64,000 bases of DNA from NCBI GenBank assembly GCA_947479085.1, contig CANJYB010000012.1, positions 1 through 64,000 on the forward strand, read 5' to 3'. Source of the DNA: Bacteroidota bacterium (GTDB lineage: Bacteria; Bacteroidota; Bacteroidia; 2-12-FULL-35-15). Numbering within the stretch: position 1 is the first letter of the stretch; every line of letters begins with the position of its first letter. The notes beneath the pieces were generated by a model. It had not been told where the DNA came from and did no database searches. It saw nothing but the letters and a program-made list of their open reading frames with translations. The position numbers and the translations under genes are program-made. Positions 36,509 through 50,415 of this stretch are shown here, in pieces.

Positions 36509-36579
36509 GGTCCTGTGGCCGAGCGGTTAGGCTGAGCTCTGCAAAAGCTCCTACTGCGGTTCAAATCCGCACGGGACCT
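36509..36579 (+). tRNA. tRNA-Cys (GCA), attachment site of the integrative element
   Basis: A 71-nt cloverleaf. The acceptor GGTCCTG pairs with CGGGACC (one G-T), followed by discriminator U73, as is usual for tRNA-Cys. The D-arm is GCCGAGCGGTTAGGC, the anticodon arm is GAGCT-CTGCAAA-AGCTC with anticodon GCA, and the T-arm is TGCGG-TTCAAAT-CCGCA. CCA is not encoded. The last bases, from the 3' half of the T-stem onward, form the attL core and are repeated at 50364, so the gene was rebuilt by the incoming element. Confidence 0.95.
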
Positions 36580-36582
36580 CAA
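36567..36582. other. attL core, left end of the element
   Basis: The 16-bp core covers the 3' half of the tRNA-Cys T-stem, the acceptor 3' strand, U73 and CAA. The flanking bases differ from those at attR, which sets the core length. Confidence 0.88.
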
Positions 36583-36592
36583 CCAAAAGTTG

Positions 36593-36627
36593 AAAACCCT
36601 TACAAACGATACGTTTGTGAGGGTTTT
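36593..36627 (+). terminator. Element-borne hairpin after tRNA-Cys
   Basis: AAAACCCTTACAAACG pairs with CGTTTGTGAGGGTTTT (one wobble) around a three-base loop, followed by GTTTTTG. It lies 13 bases after the tRNA and inside attL, so it probably replaces the native terminator now found beyond attR. Confidence 0.75.
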
Positions 36628-36636
36628 GTTTTTGCA

Positions 36637-36659
36637 GGGGTCGATTCGGGGGTCGGTTG
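36637..36659. repeat. Paired GGGGTCGGTT-type repeats inside attL
   Basis: Two GGGGTCG(A/G)TT words in tandem, about 12 bp apart. The same pair in the same orientation occurs inside attR at 50225-50247. They could be arm-type integrase sites. The rest of 36660-37007 shows no supported gene. Confidence 0.6.
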
Positions 36660-37007
36660 ATGCAAAAGAGCGCACAAAAGAATATATTAGGTTGATTGCT
36701 GATACCTACTGCATTTTGAACTGCAAAATTGAACTCTGGTTGCATCTGGATATATGAAGGTATATTTATAATAATATTTTAATAGGGGGCTTTTCAAAAG
36801 TTAGTCCGTCTTCACATAATATGACGAAGTGTCAGAGCCTACTACAAGTATATTCTAATGAATATTAAAAGGGGTATTTCTTTAAACAAATATGAAACAG
36901 CAGAAAATTATGTTCTTCAAATCAAATAAACAACGTAGAATTATTTTTTTGGAGTGGTTGGAATAATATTTTAGAGGAGGGGATAAGAGTATTGAAGAGA
37001 AGATCAG

Positions 37008-37331
37008 ATGGTAGTAGTAAGTGATTTTATAATAAAAATATTTGAATTTGTTTTTCGGAGCAAAATTAGAGCAATTGCAATTTATCCTTTCATTTTTATT
37101 CCATCAAGAACGAAAATGAATAAGGTGTTATTGAATCACGAAAAAATCCATTTAAGACAGCAATTAGAACTTTTAATTATCCCTTTTTATATCTGGTACT
37201 TGATTGAAAATATTTTTAAAGATTACGAAATGATTTCTTTTGAAAAGGAAGCATTCGCAAATGAGAAAGACCTGAATTATTTGAGAAAAAGAAAACTATT
37301 CCATTTTGTCAAGTATATAATAACAAAATAG
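37008..37331 (+). CDS. Small HExxH protein, putative metalloprotease-like
   Basis: A 107-residue protein. Residues about 43-47 read HEKIH, a zincin-type HExxH, and a Glu lies further on in SFEKEAFANEKDL near residue 79. A hydrophobic stretch between them (LLIIPFYIWYLIENIF) would sit in or on the membrane. The arrangement recalls M48/M56 peptidases but is far shorter. I infer, without proof, a tiny membrane metallohydrolase. It is the first gene inside the element. The 221-bp gap after it shows nothing but AT-rich sequence. Confidence 0.55.
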   Translation: MVVVSDFIIKIFEFVFRSKIRAIAIYPFIFIPSRTKMNKVLLNHEKIHLRQQLELLIIPFYIWYLIENIFKDYEMISFEKEAFANEKDLNYLRKRKLFHFVKYIITK

Positions 37332-37552
37332 AAAGACCAGATTTAAGAAGGTGAAAAAGTTAATAATATTATTCTACCTCTTATTACCCAAAAATTTGCT
37401 AGTTCTCTAAAATATTTTATTCCTACCCGATTTTAATTCATCAATAGTATTCTTTTCAATTAATTTATGAAACTTTATTAAACAACCATTTTATTCCAAA
37501 ACGGCATACTGAGTAAATGTCCGTAACATTGCCTGTTGGAATATGAATTTTT

Positions 37553-37780
37553 ATGGCAAAAGTTTCTTATACACAAGATAGAAAAACATTATGTGTATTG
37601 CTTGTTCAGGCTCGTGAGCAAGCAAATTTAACACAAAAGCAAGTTGCTGATACTGGCATTGTGAGTCAAAGCGAAATTTCAAAAATTGAAAATGGTCAGC
37701 GAAAAGTTGAATTTGTTGTTCTTGTAAAACTCGCTGAGTTATACAAAAGACCTATTGAATATTTTAAAACGAAAAAATAA
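37553..37780 (+). CDS. XRE-family HTH regulator, controller-protein-like
   Basis: A 75-residue single-domain DNA-binding protein. The helix-turn-helix runs from residue 20 to 50, with AREQANLTQKQVADTGIVSQSEISKIENGQRK in split form (LTQKQVAD and SQSEISKIENG). Its size and position match controller (C) proteins that time the expression of restriction genes after a system enters a new cell. It is three bases upstream of the McrB-like gene. I did not find a clear palindromic operator upstream. Confidence 0.8.
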   Translation: MAKVSYTQDRKTLCVLLVQAREQANLTQKQVADTGIVSQSEISKIENGQRKVEFVVLVKLAELYKRPIEYFKTKK

Positions 37781-37783
37781 AAA

Positions 37784-39619
37784 ATGGCTTGGCCAATTAC
37801 ACAACCGCATAGAGAATCTTTCATTCAGTTCTTGGAACCGAATCCTCCAACGAATAGTCATGGGAATTTGAATGTCAATACATTTTCGTTTTACTCCTCT
37901 GAATTAAAAAATATTAAGCAGTTAGTTGATTGCATAATTAAAGTCAATGCAGGACAATTGCAGGGAAGTGATACATCATCTGTCAGATATAGAAATACAA
38001 TGAAGAATATGGGATTGCTTGTAAACACTGCTGGAGTTTACACCTTGTCTTCAATTGGTCAAATAGCAATCGGGTATTTAACTGCAAACAGTTTGACTGC
38101 TGCCAACATTTCTTTACCTGCAAATAAGCGCCACACTTTAGAGATTGAAAAGTTAATCATTGATAGTTTAATTGATGAACTAATAAAAGGAAATGTAAAA
38201 GGGTTATGTAATGCTACATTCAATGAAATACTTTACAACGCACAAGAAATTTACAATAATATCCCTACAAGTCAAAGAGCAACCGTGCTGTCAGACCTTG
38301 ACAAATTATATTTTTTGCAGTCCATTGATTCAACTGGTGATGAAGCAAAAAGATATTTCCGTTTAAACGCTGCTAATCAAACTGCTTACTATCGGTTGTG
38401 GCTTGACTATTCTGAATCTGCAACATTTCCTGCTACTGCACCAAGAGGAATAATTGATAAAATGGTTTATGACTATTGTAGACCAAGAGCAAAAAAAACA
38501 ATTCAATTTGACTGCCGATATAGAATTGAAGCATTCTTAAAAGCATACGAATTTTGTGTAACCAAGTATGGAGATACAATGCCGTTCTTAAATAAAGATT
38601 TTGAAAACATTAACCAGAGAAAAAAAATTAGCAATATGAATAATACCGCAAATAGAAATTTTGAGCTTGCAACAAAAGCTGCTCCAACTGTTTCAGCTAA
38701 ACCAAGACATAGAATTATTTCTGGCTGTCCAGGGTCTGGCAAAAGTTTATTTGTGGAAACCGAAGCGAATGCTTTGCCGAATAGTTATCTGGTGAAAACA
38801 ACCTTCCATCAAGAAACAACCTACTATGATTTTGTTGGAACATACAAACCAACTCCGCTATATGAAAAGAATGATGACATTGTAAATTCAGCAGGAGTAA
38901 AATTTGAGTTGGGTAAACCTGTAATTAATTACTCGTTTGTTTTCGGACACTTGATTGAATCATACTTGTTCGCAATTAAAAATCCGAACTGGAATATTGT
39001 TCTTGTGATTGATGAAATCAACAGAGGAAATGTCGGGGTAATTTTTGGCGACTTTTTTCAGTTGTTAGACAGAGATAACACAAATGGAAATGAAAGCAAG
39101 TATTCAATTTTGCCAAATGCTGATTTGATAGAATTCTTAAATGGGTTTGACTTCATGCAGCCAATACTTACGAAATCAAAGAACCACATTAAACTTCCTG
39201 GGAACTTGTTTATCTGGGGAACAATGAACAGTGCAGACCAAGGTGTTTTTCCAATTGATTCTGCATTTAGAAGAAGATGGGAATTTGAATACAAAGGATA
39301 CAACGAAGCATGTGCTTACGGAACTGATGTGTTGAAATACAATAACGCAAATGTGCAATGGGAATCTTTCAGAAACCAAATCAACAAAAAACTGCTGACT
39401 GATTTAAACATTCCAGAAGATAAACTAATCGGTCCTTACTTCTTGACAAAAGAAGAAATCAGTAGTCCAGAAAAAGTTTTGAATAAACTGTTTCTGTATT
39501 TGTGGGATGATGTCGCCAGATTTCAGCATAAAGAATTGATGAGTTACGATTCGTTTGCTGATTTAAAAACTGCTTGGAAAAATGGCGTAGGCAAAATTTT
39601 CACTTTTGATATTGTCTGA
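37784..39619 (+). CDS. McrB-like AAA+ ATPase/GTPase of a restriction system
   Basis: A 611-residue protein. The N-terminal 290 residues are unrecognised and probably recognise DNA. The motor follows: Walker A GCPGSGKS near residue 313, Walker B VLVIDEINRG near 406, GTMNSADQG near 480 and the arginine-rich RRRWEF near 494. This combination, with NxAD in the sensor region, is that of McrB-type motors, which drive nuclease partners along DNA. The last base of its stop overlaps the first base of the nuclease gene. Together they resemble the R1/R2 pair of LlaJI. Confidence 0.88.
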   Translation: MAWPITQPHRESFIQFLEPNPPTNSHGNLNVNTFSFYSSELKNIKQLVDCIIKVNAGQLQGSDTSSVRYRNTMKNMGLLVNTAGVYTLSSIGQIAIGYLTANSLTAANISLPANKRHTLEIEKLIIDSLIDELIKGNVKGLCNATFNEILYNAQEIYNNIPTSQRATVLSDLDKLYFLQSIDSTGDEAKRYFRLNAANQTAYYRLWLDYSESATFPATAPRGIIDKMVYDYCRPRAKKTIQFDCRYRIEAFLKAYEFCVTKYGDTMPFLNKDFENINQRKKISNMNNTANRNFELATKAAPTVSAKPRHRIISGCPGSGKSLFVETEANALPNSYLVKTTFHQETTYYDFVGTYKPTPLYEKNDDIVNSAGVKFELGKPVINYSFVFGHLIESYLFAIKNPNWNIVLVIDEINRGNVGVIFGDFFQLLDRDNTNGNESKYSILPNADLIEFLNGFDFMQPILTKSKNHIKLPGNLFIWGTMNSADQGVFPIDSAFRRRWEFEYKGYNEACAYGTDVLKYNNANVQWESFRNQINKKLLTDLNIPEDKLIGPYFLTKEEISSPEKVLNKLFLYLWDDVARFQHKELMSYDSFADLKTAWKNGVGKIFTFDIV

Positions 39620-40968
39620 TGTTGAAAGAGGAACTTCATATTATTTCAGAAGGTGAATCATTCATTTTAAAAGAATGGTGCAGAAAACTTTCAATTACCG
39701 ACTCTGAATTTGATGAACTTCTCAATTGCAGAATTTTTCTGCAAGTAGAAAGCAATTTGTTTAGAAACACATTTGTCGGAACAATTAAACTCAGAAAAAA
39801 TTTATTTTACTCATTGCCGAAATGTTTTTCTATTGAAAACAATTCCGATGAAAAAACTGTAAAGCAAATTGTTCAATTGGTTGAAAAGAGTTTGCTTGCT
39901 TACAAGAAAAGAATTGACAGCTCAAAAGCAATTCGGACAGAAGAAAATTTTTATTTGGCAATAAGGTATTTGCAAACCAGAACTGAATTTGATTTACTTC
40001 TCACCCTAAAAGAAAGCTATTTCAAAAATGGTTTGTTCCGAAAAAAGAAAAACAAGTATCAAGAAAGAAAATCTTTTGCAGGTGTAAATTGGCAACAAAC
40101 AATTAGCAAACGACAACCAATTTATTCTGATGGAACTCCCGTTTATGTAAGCCCTATTTCAAAAGATTTTTCTTTTGAAGAAAGTAAGATTACTATACTC
40201 CACTTATCAATTCTCAGTTATCTGGCAAAGAAGTATCACTTCTTTGAATACAGCGGAAACTTATCTGCTACTCTGAAATCTGAAAACTTAGAATACTTGT
40301 CGGAAATCGAATTGAGAAGAGATGCTGTAAACTGGATTAGCATTTTGAACTCTGAACTAAGAAGAACTTACAAGGATGAGTTGAAAGAAATTTTATTGTT
40401 GTTAAGAGAGTTTTTTGTTGAAGATGGTTACAGGTCAGTGAAAACTTTTAGCTTGTTTGGTACAAGTTATTACTACATGGTTTGGGAAGATGCATTGAAA
40501 GTTGCAATGACTGATGAGTATGAAAAATTTATCTCACAAATTGGTCAACCGATTTATCATTTACAAAATGGTACTAGTAGTAATGCTGGACAAGAACCTG
40601 ATATTTTAATTGAGAGAGAAAATTCATTTTACATCTTGGATGCAAAATATTATGTCTTACAAAGGTCAAAGCCAGGGTGGAAAGATATTGTTAAGCAACT
40701 GTTCTATCAAAAATCATTTGTCCCACAAAAGGAATACGATACAATTGAGAATATTTTTTTAGTTCCGTTGCTGCTGCAAACGGAAAAACTACAAATTGAG
40801 AAAGCAGATGAATACTTTGGAAAAGTTGTTGTTGAACATGGCGGTATTGCCTTGTCAGATTTTCCTGAGATAAAAATATTGGGATTGAATCCTGTAAATG
40901 TTTTTCGCAATTACATACGAACTTCACCAGAGCAAATAAATTTTACAAACCTGCTGCCACCAAATTAA
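39619..40968 (+). CDS. LlaJI/McrC-like restriction endonuclease subunit
   Basis: A 449-residue protein. The N-terminal region (FVGTIKLRKNLFYSLPKCF near 50) matches the LlaJI family. A PD-(D/E)xK nuclease core is visible as PDILIE near residue 325 and LDAKYY near 340. It would cut DNA when moved or activated by the McrB-like partner. It starts on the partner's stop codon, so the two are co-translated. The gene converges on, and overlaps by 26 bases, a methyltransferase gene on the minus strand. Confidence 0.85.
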   Translation: MLKEELHIISEGESFILKEWCRKLSITDSEFDELLNCRIFLQVESNLFRNTFVGTIKLRKNLFYSLPKCFSIENNSDEKTVKQIVQLVEKSLLAYKKRIDSSKAIRTEENFYLAIRYLQTRTEFDLLLTLKESYFKNGLFRKKKNKYQERKSFAGVNWQQTISKRQPIYSDGTPVYVSPISKDFSFEESKITILHLSILSYLAKKYHFFEYSGNLSATLKSENLEYLSEIELRRDAVNWISILNSELRRTYKDELKEILLLLREFFVEDGYRSVKTFSLFGTSYYYMVWEDALKVAMTDEYEKFISQIGQPIYHLQNGTSSNAGQEPDILIERENSFYILDAKYYVLQRSKPGWKDIVKQLFYQKSFVPQKEYDTIENIFLVPLLLQTEKLQIEKADEYFGKVVVEHGGIALSDFPEIKILGLNPVNVFRNYIRTSPEQINFTNLLPPN

Positions 40969-42331
40969 GTTCTTCGGCAATTGGATTGGAAAAGAATTGC
41001 AGTCCGAAATTTTTATTCGGAATAGATAAAAAGTTGTTTCCGTTTTTTATTCCATTCGAAATGGTTATTCCATTTTCTATTTTTTGTCTTTCGCCAAAAA
41101 ATAAATACTCGTCAATGTGTTCCTTTTTTTCTCCAACTCTGCTTTGATAATTCTGTCTTTTTTGGAATAGAGGTTCTGCTTTGTGTGTTTTGAAAATTTC
41201 CAAATCTTGAAACAGACAAGATATTTTTTGAAAACCAATATCTGTTGCTACTTCATCTTTTGACCAATGATTCCAATGGTTTCTACCACCGTAATAACTC
41301 ATGATAACATACTTTGAGTGGCTGTTCGTGATGAGTTTCTTTATTGCAGAAATAAATTTTTCTTGAAAGCAGAAATCACTTGTGAAATCATCAAGCATAT
41401 TTTGACCACGAACAAATTCAATTTTGCCTAGGTAATCATCAAAGTTTTCAAGGAATGGGAAAGCACTGATAAAATTTATGAAATGATAGTAAGCGGAATA
41501 CTGGCGAAAGTTATATGGTGGGTCAATGTAGAGAATGTCATGCTCTGGAATTTCTTTACTAATTACTAAAGCATCGTTGCAATAAATTTTAGAATCATTG
41601 CCTAATTCATAAAGTGGAAGCTTTAAAGTAAGTTTTTGAAGTGAGTTTGGCCACAATTTATCCCTATTGAAGTCGTGAAAGGTTCCGTTCACATTTGCAA
41701 CCAAAACTACTTCTTCAATAACAGATGTTAGAAGTAAACAAACTTCATCATCGTTAATCAAATTCTCTTGATACCATTCTCTTATTTGCTCCATAACCAA
41801 GTCAAGTTTCTTTGCGTTGTTTTCGGAAAAGTAATTTCTTTTTCCTTCTGTGCCACGAACACTTTTGAAATAGGATTTAGAACCAAAGATTGTGTAATGC
41901 TCTTTGATAAACTCGTTTTGTGGTTGTCTGTAATCTTGAATGTTGTTTAAGTAATTGATAACATTCAATGCGTTGGAATTTTCTGAAAGAAAATTTTCAA
42001 GATTGAAATTGCTTAGAATAAGTCCGTTGTCCTTTCTAAGTAATTTATTAAAATAGATTTTGCTTTCCTCTTGTAAAATTGCTTGAGTTGGCAATTTTAA
42101 ATTTGAAAATGTGGGATAGGTTTCAAAACCAAAGTAGCATTTGCCGATAATAAATGAAAAGCGGTTGATGTCGTTTGAGAATACTTTAAACCCTTTGTTG
42201 TTAAAGAATCTTCCTGTGTTCGTAGTTCCTGCAAAAATGTCGCAAATGGATTTGCTGTCTGCACAATTTATTTTCACAAAATCATGAATACATTTTAAGA
42301 GAACTCTTTTGTTTCCCAAGTATTTTTCCAT
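40943..42331 (-). CDS. D12-class DNA adenine methyltransferase, second of a pair
   Basis: A 462-residue methyltransferase. Motif I (DIFAGTTNTGRFF near residue 31) comes before the catalytic DPPYNF (near 268), the order of alpha-class N6-adenine enzymes. An N-terminal KYLGNKRVLL is the motif X of the D12 group. It is likely to protect one strand of the restriction site, with the other methyltransferase on the other strand. It follows that gene by two bases. Confidence 0.88.
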   Translation of the reverse strand: MEKYLGNKRVLLKCIHDFVKINCADSKSICDIFAGTTNTGRFFNNKGFKVFSNDINRFSFIIGKCYFGFETYPTFSNLKLPTQAILQEESKIYFNKLLRKDNGLILSNFNLENFLSENSNALNVINYLNNIQDYRQPQNEFIKEHYTIFGSKSYFKSVRGTEGKRNYFSENNAKKLDLVMEQIREWYQENLINDDEVCLLLTSVIEEVVLVANVNGTFHDFNRDKLWPNSLQKLTLKLPLYELGNDSKIYCNDALVISKEIPEHDILYIDPPYNFRQYSAYYHFINFISAFPFLENFDDYLGKIEFVRGQNMLDDFTSDFCFQEKFISAIKKLITNSHSKYVIMSYYGGRNHWNHWSKDEVATDIGFQKISCLFQDLEIFKTHKAEPLFQKRQNYQSRVGEKKEHIDEYLFFGERQKIENGITISNGIKNGNNFLSIPNKNFGLQFFSNPIAEELNLVAAGL

Positions 42332-42333
42332 TG

Positions 42334-43749
42334 TCAGTTTTTTGTTTGTTTACAAAGAATCATTACTTCTCCATGCTTTAACGCCTCAGTATTATTTTTT
42401 GCTTGGTTTAATTTTCTGTGTTGATGTTGTTTTATTTCAATCACCTCAACACTTTCATAATATTTGTTTGCAAGTGAAATTATTTCGTCAATTGAAAGTA
42501 GTCGTGGTCTGTGTGTTGTGTTTTCCTCAAATGGAGAATAGGACAGAAGCAAAGGGCAATTAAATTTTGAAGCACCTTCAAATAAATCTGTGAATGCTCC
42601 TTTTACTTGTGATGGTACGCAGAATAAAGATTGGTGTCTATCAACTCTGTAAAGTCCTTTCATAATTACATTACCTACATTGGATTTATTCATTGTTGCA
42701 AGTTCTGGGTAATCATACAATGCAATTGACTCAAGGATATGATAGAACCTACTGTAATGGTCAATCGTGTATGGTGGGTCTGCGTAAAAGCAACCGATAT
42801 TCTCTTTGCAATTGTCTAAAAAATATTTGTAGTCAGAAGTAATTGACTTGTTCGTTGGCTGCTGAAAACAGTTACTTGAATATTCATTCAACCATTTTGT
42901 GAAAATAGTTACAACATCATAGTTCCTGTCTCTTACTGACCTTGACGCAAGTAATTTTTTGGGCTTATTGTTTTTGTCTGTAAGTTTCATTGGTTGTGCA
43001 AACTGTTTTCCAACAGTTGCAACAATTTCACTTAGTGTGCTGAGTAGCGAAGCAAGGAGGATTGAATATTTGGGTTTGTCAATTGATTTCAGTTCGTTTA
43101 TTTTAAACAGTAACGCATCAATCATTATTGATTGTCTGAATGAAAAATAAACGCCACCGTAATAAAGTGAGCAGTAAGAAGTTTTTCTTGAAAGTTCGGT
43201 TGCCGCTTTAAATCGTTCTTCAAATTTCTTTAAGGCGGTCAGAACAATATTTTCTGTGTCGGGAAAAAGATTGTTTGATTTTAAATAACTGTAAACTGAA
43301 CAGTTTTCAACGAATGAAGCAAACTTTAGTTTATCATCATCCGAAGCAAGTTTTGATTTCAATAGTGATTCTTCCAAACTTGTTAATGGCTCGTACATAA
43401 ATTGAAGGTCAGAAAAAATTGCATTATCAGTTGCCTCTTTAATGAATGATGTAATTTCTTCTTTTGAAAATTTTCTTCCGTTTATGAGTGCTGATGAAAT
43501 TACTGTAGAGTAGTATTGAATATCTAAAGAGATTACTGCATTCTTGTTCGCTAAAAAATGAGATACCACACCTGAGCCAGAAAACAAATCACAAACGAGA
43601 TTGGATGTTTTGTTAGATTCAACAATTTCAGAAATTTCTTTTACCAGTCGGAGTTTACTTCCAAGATATTGGATAGGTCTGAATCCATTATTTTCAACAT
43701 TAGTATCAGAAACACTGTGAGTATAAATATCAAGTTCGGACTGAAACAT
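42334..43749 (-). CDS. D12-class DNA adenine methyltransferase, first of a pair
   Basis: A 471-residue methyltransferase. IQYLGSKLRLVKEI (near 27) is motif X, DLFSGSGVVSHFLA (near 54) is motif I and ADPPYTIDHY (near 320) is the catalytic motif IV. The C-terminal half probably holds the target-recognition domain. It has the same class and layout as its neighbour but low apparent identity to it, which fits two enzymes for the two strands of a non-palindromic site. It is one base from its XRE regulator. Confidence 0.88.
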   Translation of the reverse strand: MFQSELDIYTHSVSDTNVENNGFRPIQYLGSKLRLVKEISEIVESNKTSNLVCDLFSGSGVVSHFLANKNAVISLDIQYYSTVISSALINGRKFSKEEITSFIKEATDNAIFSDLQFMYEPLTSLEESLLKSKLASDDDKLKFASFVENCSVYSYLKSNNLFPDTENIVLTALKKFEERFKAATELSRKTSYCSLYYGGVYFSFRQSIMIDALLFKINELKSIDKPKYSILLASLLSTLSEIVATVGKQFAQPMKLTDKNNKPKKLLASRSVRDRNYDVVTIFTKWLNEYSSNCFQQPTNKSITSDYKYFLDNCKENIGCFYADPPYTIDHYSRFYHILESIALYDYPELATMNKSNVGNVIMKGLYRVDRHQSLFCVPSQVKGAFTDLFEGASKFNCPLLLSYSPFEENTTHRPRLLSIDEIISLANKYYESVEVIEIKQHQHRKLNQAKNNTEALKHGEVMILCKQTKN

Positions 43750-43750
43750 T

Positions 43751-44053
43751 TTATTTGTTTTTCTTTTTGTTGTATTGAATCTTTTCTTCCGCTAATTGCA
43801 TTGCTTTCAAAGCTAAATCTTCGTCTTCCAGTTCGTATACTACCTTATCAGAAAGCCAAGCAACTAATAAATCATCTTCTTTAACTTTGAAATACTTTGC
43901 AAGTTTTATGACTTGCTCTCGGTTTGGCTTTCGTTGTCCTCTTTCAACCTTACTAAGAATTGCTTGGTCAATATCAAGGAAAGCAGCAACAGTCCGTAAA
44001 GGAAGTTCCTTTTGTCCTCTTAACCTTTTAATTGTTTCACCTAAACTTTCCAT
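43751..44053 (-). CDS. XRE-family regulator of the methyltransferase operon
   Basis: A 100-residue HTH protein. The helix-turn-helix covers residues about 7-60 (TIKRLRGQKELPLRTVAAFL and DQAILSKVERGQRKPNREQ). The C-terminal 35 residues are Lys/Glu-rich and may dimerise. A perfect palindrome (44069-44087) lies 16 bases before its start and overlaps the likely -7 box, so self-repression is likely. It leads the operon with the two methyltransferases. Confidence 0.85.
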   Translation of the reverse strand: MESLGETIKRLRGQKELPLRTVAAFLDIDQAILSKVERGQRKPNREQVIKLAKYFKVKEDDLLVAWLSDKVVYELEDEDLALKAMQLAEEKIQYNKKKNK

Positions 44054-44068
44054 TTTGAATAATTACAC

Positions 44069-44087
44069 TTTGACAATATTTGTCAAA
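44069..44087. promoter_or_regulatory. Operator palindrome upstream of the methyltransferase operon
   Basis: TTTGACAA and TTGTCAAA form perfect 8-bp arms around TAT. The minus-strand -7 box TATGTTTG (44084-44091) overlaps the right arm. Confidence 0.65.
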
Positions 44088-44237
44088 CATACTATTAATT
44101 TGTATATCTAATTCAAAAAAGGTTGCTTTTTTTCAACAAAACAAATATTGTCTTTAAAAACCAAAAATAATTCTAAATTGAAACTTTCCTTCCCCAATTT
44201 TAAAATACTTATTTTGATTTTTAAATAAAAAAGCTAT

Positions 44238-44872
44238 AGTTTCTTATAACACTCCGCAGTTCAGCTTCTTTACTTCTACTTCTTGAAATCTGTTTGTCCG
44301 AAACGATTGTGAACACTCAGCAAACAACGCTGTGTTAATTGCTGACCAATTGAAATTTGATGAGAACTTTGAAAAACATTTTTAAAGTCAGTTTGCTGGA
44401 GATGCTGAATGCTGATTTGAAAAAGGTTCCCTTTTGCCAAACAGCACACAGCAATTCGGCATTTTACCTTCTGCTCCTTGAAAACTGTTTATCAGAACAG
44501 ATTTAAAGCGTTCGGCAATCTGCACAGCAAATAAAGAAAGGGTTAATTGCTGATTGATTAAGATTTGACCAAATTTTTGAAATTTAAGGACGAAAACAAA
44601 GTTGCTGAATTCGCTGAATGCTGATTTCCGCTTTTTTAAAAGTTACCTTTTGTTACACTGCACACGGCAATTCAGCGTCTTGGCTTCTCCTTCTTAAAAA
44701 CGGCTTGTCAGAAACGATTAAGAACATTCAGCACATAATACAGCGCACAGTGGCTGTGTAATTTGCTGACTGATTCAAGGTTGACCAAAGCTTTATAGTT
44801 CGGGGAAGAGAGCAGGTTTACTGAATTTGCTGACTGCTGTATCTGATAAAAAAAGTTTTCTAATTGAGTAAA
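44238..44872. repeat. Three diverged copies of a ~200-bp repeat, possibly structured RNA
   Basis: Copies begin near 44238, 44425 and 44642. Shared landmarks in order are a CAATTC(A/G)GC-type word, CTTCTT-type pyrimidines, GTTT(A/G)TC, CGATT, TCAGCAA, TTAATTGCTGA, and a closing GCTGAATGCTGATT region. In each copy TCAGCA (44317, 44512 as TCGGCA, 44728) can pair with a TGCTGA 20-30 bases later. The G in copy 2 keeps a G-T pair. Identity between copies looks only moderate. The whole gap 44054-44975 has no supported gene. Function is unknown; a non-coding RNA array or a replication/transfer region are both possible. Confidence 0.65.
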
Positions 44873-44975
44873 GTGTTTAGCTTTTTTTTGAAAGAGCGAA
44901 TTAGTTAATGATTCAAAACACAACAACCTGCGAAATTGATTTGCTCAACAACGCAGGTGTGTGTCTTTGTAATCT

Positions 44976-45200
44976 TTACCAAAAAAGAGATTCTAAATCG
45001 ATGTTATCACCCCCATTTCGCATCCATTCTTGATACTTTTCGTAGCCCATATTAAAAGCTCTTTCAGCTTCCTCTCTTGTTTTGAAACCTTTGTGTTTCG
45101 CATTGCTGTATCCGTCAGTAGACTTTTTTCTCTCTTTATCAGTGTTAAATACGCCTAATGTGCGACCTACCCATACTACGTAATAATTAAATTTACTCAT
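44976..45200 (-). CDS. Stand-alone viroplasmin / RNase H1 N-terminal-type domain protein
   Basis: A 74-residue protein made of a single viroplasmin domain. The pattern YYVVWVGRTLGVFNT, then GYSNAKHKGFKTREEAERAF, matches the caulimovirus viroplasmin and the N-terminal hybrid-binding domain of RNase H1. Such domains bind dsRNA or RNA-DNA hybrids. No RNase H catalytic domain is attached. It overlaps the end of the DUF3987 gene by eight bases, and so belongs to that operon. It lies directly beside the three-copy repeat region. Confidence 0.8.
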   Translation of the reverse strand: MSKFNYYVVWVGRTLGVFNTDKERKKSTDGYSNAKHKGFKTREEAERAFNMGYEKYQEWMRNGGDNIDLESLFW

Positions 45201-46503
45201 GGCTCTTTTGATTTTGATTGTTATTTAAATAATCTGGATTAAGAGTAAAAATGTGTGTTTTCTGATTTCCGCCAGCAACATCTTCGTGCATACGAATTTG
45301 ACCAATTCCCTTTGCCTTCATTTCACAAAAGATGTCATATACTTCATTAGCAGATTTTAGACCTGCAACACGATTAGTGTAAACCGTACGTGCTTTTGCA
45401 CACCCATTCTTCTGTTTTCTCAACCAAGATACCATTTTGTCTATCTTTTTTTCAACAAGCGATGAAGCGAATGAATCACGAACCTTTTGAACATTTGATA
45501 TAAAGTAATTGGTTAATTTTATTGCTCCTTGTAAACTCTCAACAGAAATACTTTGCACCTCTATACTAGCATCTGCACATCTCAAATACTCTAAATTTAA
45601 TGCAAAACGAGCCGTGTATGCTTCAAGTTTTGATAAGGCATTTAGAAAATAATAAGGTAAAGAATCGTCATTCCGTTTTTCCGAAAATTCCGTATTCCAC
45701 TCGTTCCACAGCAATTGAGCTTCTGTCGAAAACAAAAGCACCTTTTCTTCACTTGCTTGTTGCGAATTGTAGATATGGGTAATTATTCTATTGTACTCAT
45801 TTGTAATTTCCTCATCTATCTCTTCGGTAGTGTACTTTATTTTAATTTTACGGGGATAAGAAAACAGTATCCTGTCTAAAAAACCATTGTCTCTCATTTC
45901 GGATAAAGATTCTAATAAATCTACCTGAATTCCACCTATAACTGATACAAAGGGATTGTTGATTTGAATTGGAGGCTTCCCTTTTCTAGTTATCACCAAT
46001 GTTGTTTGGCTAAAAATTTGGAGATAGTATTCCATTTCATTGCCTCCTGAAGATTTGTACTGATTGAAACCTTTCCACCAACCTACTGCCTCATCTTTAT
46101 AAAGCAAAAGACCGTGAGGATAAAGGGACATCAATTCTGCTACCGATTCAATAGTTGAATCAGTAGTGTAAATAATCCTAAACTCTTCACTATTTAAGAA
46201 TGATTTTTGTAAATCGAAAATAGGTGCTAATGCCATTTTAATAGCAGGAGATTTTTTACTTCCTGGCTCTCCTACCACAATTGCATATAACAACGCACCT
46301 TCCGTCCAACTTTTCTTTGGTTGTACTTTTACTTTGTTACCAATTGCAACTGAACTAGCAATTAGAATTGGAACACAAAGAAACTCTACATTGCAGTTGA
46401 GTGAAATGGCTGCATACTTAACGAATTTAATAATTGAAGGAGGAAAAACCTCTATTGGGAATCCTTCGACTTCATTGTAATTTGAAAATTTTGTAATTGA
46501 CAT
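45193..46503 (-). CDS. DUF3987 protein, primase/helicase-associated ATPase-like
   Basis: About 436 residues from the ATG at 46503; a longer open frame reaches 46581 but lacks support. The DUF3987 pattern is clear: SIIKFVKYAAISLNCN near the start, a Walker-like GEPGSKKSPAIKMAL near residue 95, then DEAVGWW near 145 and a C-terminal helical part. These proteins accompany primases in phages and mobile elements and probably act in element replication. The C-terminal 60 residues may form a winged-helix. The gene is downstream of an excisionase-type HTH gene. Confidence 0.8.
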   Translation of the reverse strand: MSITKFSNYNEVEGFPIEVFPPSIIKFVKYAAISLNCNVEFLCVPILIASSVAIGNKVKVQPKKSWTEGALLYAIVVGEPGSKKSPAIKMALAPIFDLQKSFLNSEEFRIIYTTDSTIESVAELMSLYPHGLLLYKDEAVGWWKGFNQYKSSGGNEMEYYLQIFSQTTLVITRKGKPPIQINNPFVSVIGGIQVDLLESLSEMRDNGFLDRILFSYPRKIKIKYTTEEIDEEITNEYNRIITHIYNSQQASEEKVLLFSTEAQLLWNEWNTEFSEKRNDDSLPYYFLNALSKLEAYTARFALNLEYLRCADASIEVQSISVESLQGAIKLTNYFISNVQKVRDSFASSLVEKKIDKMVSWLRKQKNGCAKARTVYTNRVAGLKSANEVYDIFCEMKAKGIGQIRMHEDVAGGNQKTHIFTLNPDYLNNNQNQKSHE

Positions 46504-46636
46504 TTTTTTTGAATTAATTGTTATAAATTTTATTGATTGTTTTTCTTTTAAGATTTTCAATTTGATGGTGAACCTCGACAATATTGATTCGATATTTTCT
46601 TGGTAATAGAAAGTAGGCTAAAAGCTATTTTAAAAA

Positions 46637-46942
46637 TCATAACTCAATCCCTCCTTTCTTATTTTTGACGGATTTTACGAGAGTAACTGATTCTATAATC
46701 TCACTTTCAATAAAAAGGACTTTTGATCCGATTCGATACGAAGGTATTATGCCTCTTTTACAATAATCCCCTAACGTAACAAGGCTAATCCCTAAAATAG
46801 AAGCAGTTTTTTTCCTGCATATAAATTTTTTTGATTGTGTAGGAATTTGTGGTGTGAAGTTTGCTAATTCAGATTTTATACAGTCCCGAATTATTTTCTC
46901 TAAATCTTCTGGCGAATAAGTGTATATGATTGTCTTGTTCAT
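46637..46942 (-). CDS. Excisionase-type helix-turn-helix protein
   Basis: About 101 residues from the ATG at 46942 (an upstream ATG at 46978 is possible). FICRKKTASILGISLVTLGDYCKRGIIPSYRIG is the MerR-like winged helix of excisionases and small element regulators (key pieces TASILGISLVTL and YRIGSKVLF). An N-terminal helix may be for oligomerisation. It probably regulates replication or helps excision. It is divergent from the IS630-like gene, with about 150 bases between them. Confidence 0.82.
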   Translation of the reverse strand: MNKTIIYTYSPEDLEKIIRDCIKSELANFTPQIPTQSKKFICRKKTASILGISLVTLGDYCKRGIIPSYRIGSKVLFIESEIIESVTLVKSVKNKKGGIEL

Positions 46943-47092
46943 ATCTCCCTTTATTACCCTCGTGTCAAATGTATTCACATTGCCTAAACCCTGCTGTTTT
47001 CAACACATTGAAGTTTTGTCTTCTTGTTAAAAATTATTTTACAGAGCATCATTTAGTGCAATTTTTGGCATAGTAATTGAGTATTATTTTGA

Positions 47093-48070
47093 ATGAAAAA
47101 AATAAAACGTGGAGATAAAAAAAGTCAAGAGGAAAAACGCAAAAAAGTTGTAATTTTTCTTAAACTCAAAGAGGGTACACACGAAAGGGCTGCTTTGGAA
47201 TTTGGGCTTTCAAAGAGTGCGGTGGATAAAATTTGGCTTCGTTTTAAAGATAAAAAAGAAGAAGAAATTGATAAAGAAATTATTTCAAAGAAGTGTGGAA
47301 TTAAAGAAGGATGGAAACTATCAAAAAAAGACATTGAAGGGGTAAAGAAAGATATGAAACCTGAAATATCAAAGGAATTAGACCTCAAATTAATCCTTTG
47401 GAGTGTTTCAATTGTTCAAGAGTTAATTCTTAATAAGTATAAAGTTAACTTGTCTCGTTGGCAAGTAAGTAGGTACTTAAAAGCTTGGGGATATTTGTTG
47501 CAAAAACCTATAAATATGGTTGTTGAGGAGAAATCGAAGAACTTTAAAAATTGGTATTATGAAGAATATCTTCCACATATTATTAAGGATGCTAAAAAAG
47601 AAAAAGCAGTAATTTATTTTGGTGATGAAACAGGAATGCTAAACAAACAAATAGAAAAAGACAATCGGTTTAAAACTGCATCACGCCTTCATTCACTAAA
47701 AACACTTTCAGCAATTACAAGCAAAGGGCATCAGCAATTTGTAGTAGTTCGCGGAATAATTAATAACGAGAAAATACAAAAATTCTTAGAATTATTAATT
47801 GATAGTAATAATAAAAAAATATTTCTCATTACTGATAATTCTGCTTATAGAACAAAACAATTGGAAAAGTGGTCAAGTTCAAACAGCAAAATCGAATTAA
47901 TTCTTACACCAAACGATAAGCCAAAAGTAATTAAACCTATAAAAATAAGAGATGAAAATACAGCCTTTTCTTTTTTAAACAAAAACCTAAAAAGAAGAAG
48001 TTCTAAAAGTGCACAACTTGCGGAATTAGACAAAGAGATGGAAAAGGCAATCAGAGAAAGGGACAGTTAA
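47093..48070 (+). CDS. IS630-like transposase homologue without the final catalytic Glu region
   Basis: A 325-residue protein. An N-terminal HTH (RAALEFGLSKSAVDKIWLRF) is followed by a winged-helix region and a DDE-type core: YFGDETG near residue 181 and LITDNSAYRTKQL near 243. The usual closing motif of IS630 enzymes, LPPYSPELNPIE, is replaced by LTPNDKPKVIKP, so the third acidic residue is missing. No terminal inverted repeats or TA duplication are evident. It may be a domesticated transposase with a regulatory role, or a dead one. It converges on the RadC/JAB gene with a four-base overlap. Confidence 0.65.
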   Translation: MKKIKRGDKKSQEEKRKKVVIFLKLKEGTHERAALEFGLSKSAVDKIWLRFKDKKEEEIDKEIISKKCGIKEGWKLSKKDIEGVKKDMKPEISKELDLKLILWSVSIVQELILNKYKVNLSRWQVSRYLKAWGYLLQKPINMVVEEKSKNFKNWYYEEYLPHIIKDAKKEKAVIYFGDETGMLNKQIEKDNRFKTASRLHSLKTLSAITSKGHQQFVVVRGIINNEKIQKFLELLIDSNNKKIFLITDNSAYRTKQLEKWSSSNSKIELILTPNDKPKVIKPIKIRDENTAFSFLNKNLKRRSSKSAQLAELDKEMEKAIRERDS

Positions 48071-48495
48071 AACTTTCCATTATCTGCGTAACTATAGTAT
48101 TCCTTTTGGCAAAAAATAATATGGTCTATTACTTCAATCCCAATTATTTTGCCTGCTTCTTTTATTGAGGCGGTTATTTTATCATCTGCCGAACTTGCAG
48201 TCATATTTCCTGATGGGTGATTGTGGGCGATTACAATTGAATCTGATGCGTGTGCTATTGCTCTTCTGAATACTTCTCTTGCATGTACAAGTGTTCCTGA
48301 CAATATCCCTACTGATGCTAAATCAAGATATTTAATGTGTCGATTTCTTGTTAACCCAAGTACAAAAAAATGTTCTTTTTCTTTGTCAATTTCATCCATA
48401 GTTTCAAAAGCCTTTAGGAAAACATTGTATGCCTTTTCAGATGAATAAATTTTCTCATTTCTAAATTGAGGATGCACTTCAATAATCATTTTCAA
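48067..48495 (-). CDS. RadC-like JAB domain protein
   Basis: A 142-residue metallohydrolase-like protein. The JAB motif is complete: IAHNHPSGNMTASSADD near residues 93-109, with Glu34-type residue upstream (EKEHFFVLGL). Stand-alone RadC/JAB proteins are very common in mobile elements, and some affect DNA repair or element maintenance; the activity is unknown. It ends four bases inside the convergent IS630-like gene. Confidence 0.88.
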   Translation of the reverse strand: MKMIIEVHPQFRNEKIYSSEKAYNVFLKAFETMDEIDKEKEHFFVLGLTRNRHIKYLDLASVGILSGTLVHAREVFRRAIAHASDSIVIAHNHPSGNMTASSADDKITASIKEAGKIIGIEVIDHIIFCQKEYYSYADNGKF

Positions 48496-48764
48496 AATTT
48501 TTCTAATAAATCCCAGACCTTCTTTTTCAGTTTTGTAATTTCACTATCGTTAAAAACAGGCTTGTATTTTGGTTCAGAACCGAAGATAGTCTTGTCCTCG
48601 TCTATAACTCTTTCTGTCATTAAATCTCTTAAACTGCTTATCTGGTCAATAAACATTTTTTTGTCGCTCCTTAAATGGTCTTTTTTAATCTCTATAAGAT
48701 TAATCTTTTTCTTTTTAATCTCTAATTTAAGAGATATGATTTCTAGTCGTTCTTTCTCTTCCAT
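48492..48764 (-). CDS. Small coiled-coil protein of unknown function
   Basis: About 90 residues from the ATG at 48764 (the open frame extends to 48791 but would overlap the integrase more). It is almost all charged and helical: MEEKERLEIISLKLEIKKKK at the start and EITKLKKKVWDLLEKF at the end. It overlaps the RadC/JAB gene by four bases and starts just inside the last codons of the integrase gene, so the three are probably one transcript. I do not recognise it. Confidence 0.6.
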   Translation of the reverse strand: MEEKERLEIISLKLEIKKKKINLIEIKKDHLRSDKKMFIDQISSLRDLMTERVIDEDKTIFGSEPKYKPVFNDSEITKLKKKVWDLLEKF

Positions 48765-48768
48765 AATT

Positions 48769-50088
48769 TTAAATTTGAACTGTTTCTGCAATTTGTTTTT
48801 CTGTGTTTTCCATTTTTATCCAATGTTGTTGAAGTAACTTTGCATTTTCATTAGGAGTAACTTTTATGTAGGTCAGGAAAGCCTTTTCGGTGCGGTGTCC
48901 TGTGATTTTCATTATCGTAATTGAGGATAATCCTGACTTATAATGATTAGTTGCAAAACTTCTTCTGGCTGTATGAGTAACCATTAATTCATACTTCTTA
49001 TTATTGGATATTAATAATTGTCCTCCTTTTGTAATTTTGGTTGTTACCATTACATTTAGGCATTCTAACTTACTACCTATTTCTTTTAAGTGCTTGTTTG
49101 TTTTTGCATTTGAAATTGAAGGAGGCAAAGAATTTGGAAATTTATCTTTGTATTTTCCCATTATCAATTTTACAGTTGGGTGAATTGGAATGACTACAGA
49201 TTCTTCTGTTTTTTTAGTGGTGATTTCTATAAAATCTCCATTTATGTGTTTAGGCTCAATTCTTGAAAAATCGCTAAAACGTAAGCCAGTCCAACAACCC
49301 ACAAGGAACAAATCTCTTACGTGTTCAAGGCTTGGTTTATTAGATAAATCCAATTTAAAAAGTTCATCAAGTTCACTAGTATTAAGGTATATGCTATCAA
49401 TCTTTTCGGTTAACACTTTAAATTTTTTACTCTTGAAAGAAAGGTTTTTATGAATATCTCTTTCAGCAGCATCATTTAAAAATGATTTTATAGTTTTTAT
49501 ATGCCTACCTATGCTATTATTTGCGAGGTTTTTTTCTTTCGTAAGGTATTCCATATATTCGGTATAAAAATCTAAATCAATTGTATCAAAACCTATTCGT
49601 TTCTGTTTTTTTATGGAATATTCTTTTAGCGTTAAAAGAGTGTTTTTATAGATACCAATAGTTCCTTTCGCAAGGGCTTTCCCTGTTTCTAAATTAAATC
49701 TACTTTCCGCCTCTAAAATATATTGCTTTATAAAACTAAACAAATCCATTTTTTGTTTGGTTTGAGCATTTCTTAATACAATATCAAGCAGTTGTTTTAA
49801 TTCCTCAACATTTGGCTCTCTATTATTATCGTTTTGAAATTTTCTGAAAGCATTTTTTGCGGAAGATTCAATCCAATTCAGCCTTGCATTAAATTCAGGA
49901 TATTCTGGAAACCCTCTTGTTTCTTTTGCTCTTTGGAAATTTCTTTTCCCTTTATCTACTTCAAAAAATTTTGGTTGAATAAATTCTTTTGTAGAGTACT
50001 TTAATTTTTTCTTGTCCCATCTTACAACAAGATTTATCAATGTTACCTCATTGCTTTTGGGATTTTTTAGATTGAAATTAATTTTCAT
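48769..50088 (-). CDS. Tyrosine recombinase / integrase of the element
   Basis: A 439-residue phage-type integrase of the Bacteroidota family. An N-terminal arm-binding region and a SAM-like core-binding domain (residues 100-215) come before the catalytic domain. The catalytic residues are visible: Arg in GCWTGLRFSDF near 272, His and Arg in HTARRSFAT near 372, the GH pair in KITGHRTEK near 395, and the nucleophile Tyr in LTYIKV near 405. It ends about 275 bases from the right attachment site and should mediate integration into tRNA-Cys. Confidence 0.92.
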   Translation of the reverse strand: MKINFNLKNPKSNEVTLINLVVRWDKKKLKYSTKEFIQPKFFEVDKGKRNFQRAKETRGFPEYPEFNARLNWIESSAKNAFRKFQNDNNREPNVEELKQLLDIVLRNAQTKQKMDLFSFIKQYILEAESRFNLETGKALAKGTIGIYKNTLLTLKEYSIKKQKRIGFDTIDLDFYTEYMEYLTKEKNLANNSIGRHIKTIKSFLNDAAERDIHKNLSFKSKKFKVLTEKIDSIYLNTSELDELFKLDLSNKPSLEHVRDLFLVGCWTGLRFSDFSRIEPKHINGDFIEITTKKTEESVVIPIHPTVKLIMGKYKDKFPNSLPPSISNAKTNKHLKEIGSKLECLNVMVTTKITKGGQLLISNNKKYELMVTHTARRSFATNHYKSGLSSITIMKITGHRTEKAFLTYIKVTPNENAKLLQQHWIKMENTEKQIAETVQI

Positions 50089-50224
50089 TTTGTCTTTTTA
50101 TTACCGTTAAATAGCTACCGAAGTGGCAACCCTCATATACATATAGCATATAAAATCGCGGTGGGTGCATTTTGATAAAAATGGAAAAGAAAAGATTGGG
50201 GGGAATTATAGTAAAATATAGGGA

Positions 50225-50247
50225 GGGGTCGGTTGGGGGGTCGGTTC
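50225..50247. repeat. Paired GGGGTCGGTT repeats inside attR
   Basis: Two GGGGTCGGTT words about 12 bp apart match the pair near attL in sequence and orientation. The rest of 50089-50363 has no supported gene. Confidence 0.6.
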
Positions 50248-50363
50248 TATTTAACCATATTTTTCTGAAATTATCTGTTTTGTTTTCGGAAGCCTTAACT
50301 AAAGTTAAAGTAGCGAGTAAAATTTGGTAAAATTTGGTCGGAAATGGTAAAATATCAAGAAAA

Positions 50364-50379
50364 CCGCACGGGACCTCAA
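50364..50379. other. attR core, right end of the element
   Basis: An exact copy of the 16-bp attL core. Here it is not part of a complete tRNA. Confidence 0.88.
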
Positions 50380-50415
50380 AAAAACCTCCTCTGATATGTT
50401 CAGTGGAGGTTTTTT
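50378..50415. terminator. Displaced native terminator beyond attR
   Basis: A-run plus ACCTCCTCTGA pairs with TCAGTGGAGGT plus T-run (one mismatch). It lies just outside the element. Before insertion it would have stood directly after tRNA-Cys. Confidence 0.75.

Follow-up and report, generated by a model that had tools for sequence, protein, structure and literature searches.

The non-coding array at 44238-44872 of the window (the whole 64,000-nucleotide stretch of Bacteroidota DNA analyzed here) is probably the replication origin of an excisable island, or the initiator-loading and copy-control part of that origin; it would be of the iteron type, with its module present in triplicate. An iteron origin is a known kind of element, here tripled beside a gene encoding a DUF3987 protein, and our search of the literature (open-licence papers) retrieved no earlier description of iterons beside DUF3987.

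The host island

The array is carried by an integrated island bounded by 25-bp direct repeats (88% identical) of the 3′ end of a tRNA-Cys gene (36509-36580). The main features of the island are as follows.

36563-50384, unstranded, integrated island (approx. 13.8 kb), with the direct repeats at 36563-36587 and 50360-50384
37784-43749, unstranded, cargo: McrB-like AAA protein, LlaJI-type restriction endonuclease and two D12 adenine methyltransferases
44976-45200, minus strand, 74-aa protein with an RNase H1 N-terminal domain (Pfam Cauli_VI), encoded at the end of the replication operon, next to the array
45193-46581, minus strand, DUF3987 protein, predicted replicative helicase and proposed initiator
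46637-46978, minus strand, HTH_17 (AlpA/excisionase-like) protein
48769-50088, minus strand, tyrosine integrase

The core of the island consists of the integrase, a RadC-like gene, HTH_17, DUF3987 and the 74-aa RNase-H1-N protein; the integrase, HTH_17/AlpA and DUF3987 gave Pfam matches above the cut-off. The array is located directly 3′ of the core operon (minus strand) and is the first feature past its last stop codon, which is 137 bp from the nearest iteron triplet; the small RNase-H1-N gene sits between DUF3987 and the array. An earlier note on this DNA had described a gene-free gap between defence cargo and replication genes, and this description holds: the region 44238-44872 contains no ORF of >75 aa, with restriction-modification genes to the left and RNase H1-N/DUF3987 to the right. 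The C-terminal region of DUF3987 in relatives appears helix-turn-helix-like by eye; an AlphaFold model of the protein, built on a 2-sequence alignment, was unusable (pLDDT 36).

Several other features of the locus were recorded. The LlaJI/McrBC-like cargo (37553-44053) has small HTH genes at both ends, and an ORF for an IS630-like DDE-superfamily transposase (HTH_33 and DDE_3; 47093-48070), absent from the sister island described below, is inserted in the core and separates HTH_17 from the RadC-like gene. The same genome has another island (L112, G000:C5:40471-41775) that contains a related integrase (approx. 52% identical) and an HTH_17-like gene, and in which no DUF3987 was detected.

Organization of the array

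Three direct copies of approx. 200 bp, starting at 44250, 44445 and 44661 (spacing 195 and 216 bp), occupy 44250-44872.

44050-44249, unstranded, A+T-rich flank on the cargo side of the array (GC 0.19-0.23), a candidate melting region
44250-44444, plus strand, repeat copy 1 and linker to copy 2; orthologous to 2497-2714 of L015, the contig with the sister island
44445-44660, plus strand, repeat copy 2 and linker to copy 3; 90.8% identical to L015 2715-2898
44661-44872, plus strand, repeat copy 3; 87.5% identical to L015 2931-3114

The three-copy repeat that had been proposed is real and far beyond chance. The copies could be aligned at about 65-78% identity. In one block of 78 nt the identity to copy 1 is 68-78%, and two more conserved blocks, 41 and 26 nt long, are in register with it. 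When copies 2-3 were used as the query against the whole genome, copies 1-2 were recovered at E=1.3e-17, and this search revealed no other convincing copy elsewhere in the genome. Decay is most advanced in copy 1, which borders the cargo. A long palindrome was considered and rejected, as the units compared with their own reverse complement scored mostly no better than shuffles.

The inverted TCAGCA/TGCTGA pair, reported previously for each copy, was found in three out of three, and the reported change that preserves G-T pairing is located in copy 2, which reads TCGGCA. This pair is only part of a larger motif set: each copy contains two sets of short iterons, namely a degenerate inverted triplet at its start and a direct TGCTG triplet at its end.

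44247-44266, minus strand, degenerate inverted triplet at the start of copy 1 (TAACA, CCGCA, CAGCT; spacing 7 and 8 bp; read off the sequence)
44317-44345, unstranded, internal opposed single motifs of copy 1 (TCAGCA 44317-44322, TGCTGA 44340-44345; equivalents at 44512/44548 and 44728/44764)
44394-44414, plus strand, direct triplet of iterons in copy 1 (TGCTGgagaTGCTGaaTGCTG), spaced 9 and 7 bp
44442-44461, minus strand, inverted triplet at the start of copy 2 (CAGCA, CAGCA, CGGCA; spacing 7 and 8 bp)
44603-44623, plus strand, direct triplet of iterons in copy 2, spaced 9 and 7 bp
44658-44677, minus strand, inverted triplet at the start of copy 3 (CTGCA, CGGCA, CAGCG; spacing 7 and 8 bp)
44819-44839, plus strand, direct triplet of iterons in copy 3, spaced 9 and 7 bp

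The TGCTG 9/7 triplet has 3 matches in 64 kb, against 0.07 expected. The inverted triplets are degenerate and spaced 7/8; that of copy 1 was not detected in a strict 7/9 scan, and the strict 7-mer cluster score of the window was modest. The 9/7 triplet of copy 1 and the inverted triplet of copy 2 face each other, separated by 27 bp of A+T-rich linker; the linkers that part such opposed triplets are approx. 27-33 bp long with 27-33% GC, in an island that is A+T-rich overall. The apparent "pairing" is better read as opposed copies of one short binding motif, and the motif as an iteron. A sub-threshold Rfam match (mir-2024, 44395-44460) marks the inverted arrangement at a unit junction.

Conservation in a sister island

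A sister island with the same core and different cargo was identified on contig L015 (genome G021; MAG CAIRRW010000157.1). It keeps three array copies at the same position as in the window, and the TGCTG 9/7 triplet is present in all three. The orthologous units are 83-91% identical, which approximates the fourfold-site identity of DUF3987 (0.865); the presence of the same three copies in both islands at this level of identity indicates that the triplication predates the split of the islands. Judged from these two sequences, most of each unit evolves fast. Position-defined iteron columns showed 10.5% divergence between the window and L015 vs 14.8% elsewhere (p=0.16), the direct triplets differ by 6.7%, and a motif-defined constraint test gave p=0.013; relaxed constraint between the modules would be expected if they are redundant. 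The random decay in related elements that the earlier note had named as refuting evidence was not seen for the array taken as a whole, which is kept next to different cargo.

Searches of 36 genomes of the genus, 395 of the class and plasmid, phage and viral collections revealed no further array (weak blastn matches in G002, G096 and G274 were attributed to chance), and islands with related integrases yielded no arrays of approx. 200 bp. The integrases of the sister islands (window 48769-50088, L015 6118-7440) are only 67% identical, compared with 97% for DUF3987, which indicates that modules inside the core have been exchanged.

Clusters of short motifs at other DUF3987 loci

The gene order integrase-HTH-DUF3987-RNase-H1-N was found in only one other island (L048; DUF3987 39% identical). 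It has no homologous array of approx. 200 bp, and a CAGGGT cluster in both orientations is located at the same place.

A first scan covered 22 DUF3987 loci and looked for clusters of 7-mers present in both orientations; in many loci the top cluster was placed just 3′ of DUF3987, with differing motifs. The typical layout is that of L062, TGCAGTattTGCAGTtTGCAGT ... ACTGCAacaACTGCAaACTGCA with spacing 9 and 7, and the window copies share it (TGCTG 9/7 at 44394, 44603 and 44819). The survey was enlarged by 26 loci to 48, of which 46 were scored for the position of the top short-motif cluster; this was <1 kb 3′ of DUF3987 in 16 of them (3.5 expected, p=1.5e-7). Clusters with 6 or more copies, in both orientations and within 800 bp, were present at 12/48 DUF3987 3′ regions in the class vs 4/477 other gene ends (p=1.2e-10); 24 of the 48 loci score 0. 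The pattern had been discovered on the first 22 loci, and the 26 added loci therefore count as held out: here the frequency was 4/26 vs 4/477 (p=3e-4), or 3/25 when L175 was left out (p=0.003), and top-cluster position alone was not significant (p=0.12).

Spacing of 7-9 bp was enriched at this position, with 22 (9,7)+(7,9) triplets in the 1 kb after DUF3987 vs 6 in twice as much control DNA. As many as 61 of 78 strict triplet matches were located in this 1 kb, against 5.3 by shuffling over all loci, a count in which overlapping matches within one cluster enter several times. The clusters track the DUF3987 gene despite changes of motif and of neighbouring genes. Among 16 proteins, motif similarity was correlated with the similarity of DUF3987, with a Mantel rho of 0.46 (p=0.001) when its core was compared and of 0.29 (p=0.03) when its C-terminal part was. 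This correlation fits co-inheritance and does not tell which domain binds.

Nine named DUF3987 records outside the survey were also analyzed, and clusters were found in six: Bacteroides xylanisolvens pFunn3_1, P. distasonis, the phage-labelled contigs MT836643 and MT836828, Priestia megaterium p3 and Salinibacter ruber pSR11. By the same count, B. uniformis pBUN2, B. finegoldii and MT837912 had no cluster. The DUF3987 of MT836643 is 96.5% identical to that of L062, and this record is therefore not independent of L062. The record that matters most is pSR11, an 11.5-kb circular plasmid in which no other Rep was recognised (its searched proteins matched no Rep family). Its motif (5 bp) was missed by the 6-mer count and was recognised through the spacing: a long DUF3987-bearing ORF is immediately followed by TTGCA 7/9 facing TGCAG/TGCAA 9/7.

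The survey also revealed clusters at other positions. GGCAACA clusters in both orientations, possibly integrase arm-type sites, are located 5-6 kb upstream of DUF3987 in L151 (11675-11893), L172 (2367-2505) and L157 (2000-2078), and the strongest cluster of the survey (9 x ACTTACA, both orientations; L173 10738-11033) lies approx. 5.4 kb upstream of DUF3987. In several elements the gene past the iterons (L062 6339-7346, L067 8826-10142) encodes a Zn_ribbon_16 and DUF6371 protein, which is apparently primase-like.

Proposed mechanism and alternative explanations

DUF3987 is a predicted helicase of mobile-element replicons (PMC5862659). The search model for PICMIs defines their primase by DUF3987/DUF5906, and the primase gene acts in replication (PMC10803314). 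SaPI/PICI origins are placed immediately past the 3′ end of the gene for the initiator helicase and consist of iterons, with one set on each side of an A+T-rich meltable stretch (PMC6092414, PMC7581432). Taken together, these parallels make an iteron origin the most likely explanation of the array, which was also one of the three functions suggested in the earlier note and which the iteron layout 3′ of the DUF3987 helicase operon supports.

We infer that replication could proceed in the following way: (i) the island would be excised by the integrase and HTH_17, (ii) the DUF3987 helicase, or a partner protein, would then bind TTGCTGAA, a short motif that would serve as the iteron and stands in triplets (spacing 7-9 bp) opposing one another on either side of A+T-rich linkers, and (iii) binding would open the DNA there, so that the helicase and host enzymes could begin to copy the circle. 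The origin module of approx. 200 bp would have been triplicated in tandem, and the RNase-H1-N protein may perhaps stabilise an RNA-DNA hybrid at the origin.

The pairing had initially been taken as a sign of selection on structure, with a non-coding RNA array as one possible function. Such a structured RNA, transcribed from the repeats, would fit the retention of the array in two islands and its moderate folding on both strands (z of the whole array -2.3 and -3.0), and the neighbouring RNase-H1-N protein could bind RNA/DNA hybrids. We nevertheless regard it as very unlikely. Over the six copies from the two islands the named pairs are 97% paired, none of them having changed at both positions, and covariation scored the same as in shuffles, six sequences giving low power; z values per copy are only -0.8 to -2.4. 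Rfam gave no match near the gathering score, neither a strict nor a relaxed Bacteroidota promoter consensus occurs inside the array, and sigma-70-like sites in the region are no more frequent than shuffles allow. The absence of compensatory changes, of a curated-threshold Rfam match and of a promoter consensus means that a structured RNA is not supported. A covariance model (R1) searched against other genomes of the order returned weak matches that look like chance, in unrelated, mostly coding DNA without repeats; reverse-strand matches of the profile models arise from the opposed motifs.

A transfer site, also suggested previously, would make the array an oriT for mobilisation by a conjugative helper. 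Similar islands (L062, L180-L182) do encode NikA-like/MobC or relaxase proteins beyond the primase gene, but no relaxase or mobilisation family was found among the searched proteins of the window island, which lowers the likelihood of a transfer site, and the iterons of related mobilisable elements are placed away from the mob genes, in the interval from DUF3987 to DUF6371; this is the least probable of the explanations considered. Scarcely more credit can be given to a functionless tandem duplication, drifting neutrally at the junction of cargo and core. The units do diverge between the islands at about the synonymous rate, and the copy at the cargo edge has decayed most, but neither island has lost a copy or a 9/7 triplet as the remainder of the array diverged, and the architecture itself reappears, built from other sequences, 3′ of DUF3987. 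Less remote, although still unlikely, is that the motifs are operators of a regulator, or parS-like partition/incompatibility sites, which control replication or copy number without themselves being the place of initiation. Short repeats in two orientations beside a replication operon would also suit regulators or partition proteins, and HTH proteins are encoded in the island; against this, none of the island genes was recognised as a ParB/partition gene, the clusters stay with DUF3987 when motif and neighbours change, and the positional parallel with SaPI/PICI origins is closer. Iterons often also act in copy-number control, and for this reason the regulatory explanation overlaps with that of an origin.

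Returning to the iteron origin, we lean, if only slightly, towards a broader proposal, to be taken as a whole: that DUF3987 marks a widespread, apparently undescribed class of initiator-plus-iteron replicons (in Bacteroidota islands and mobilisable elements, and in plasmids as far as Rhodothermota and Bacillota), that their origin, with iterons in two orientations spaced 7-9 bp, is placed directly 3′ of the helicase gene and changes in sequence with the helicase, and that the window contains a triplicated, primase-less variant with an RNase-H1-like hybrid-binding protein. DUF3987 is still named as of "unknown function" in Pfam. If the proposal is true, it would provide a simple rule for finding origins (search 3′ of DUF3987) and a testable job for this protein, as well as a handle for mini-replicon vectors and a mechanism by which defence islands like this one could rise in copy number.

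Comparison with known systems

Three Pfam families of the core (integrase, HTH_17/AlpA, DUF3987) are shared with the PICMIs, satellites of Vibrionaceae, which integrate next to fis, whereas the window island is inserted in tRNA-Cys and carries restriction-modification cargo; the excerpted text of PMC10803314 describes no iteron origin for PICMIs. The origin of the PLE satellites of Vibrio cholerae is likewise non-coding and contains several types of repeats, including a semi-palindromic iteron that is bound by the initiator and needed for replication; it differs from the window array in its initiator (RepA_N) and in its location, within a 2.7-kb non-coding region upstream of the repA cluster (PMC7145576).

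The Bacteroides mobilisable elements L180-L182 have the same core order (integrase-HTH-DUF3987, followed there by DUF6371-mob), and in L180 iterons lie between DUF3987 and the next gene; the window island is without the DUF6371 primase and the mobilisation genes. At the putative SCCmec Cch2 origin, the helicase gene is followed by intergenic direct-repeat iterons and inverted repeats, and Cch2 binds the direct repeats (PMC7581432), the helicase, the mobile element and the phylum being different from those of the window. Finally, the SaPI/PICI origins resemble the array in that two sets of iterons lie 3′ of an initiator helicase gene, in a small integrase-bearing island with an HTH excision/regulator gene. 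In the window, the proposed initiator is DUF3987 instead of the SaPI Rep, the module of approx. 200 bp is tripled, and an RNase-H1-N gene is placed in between.
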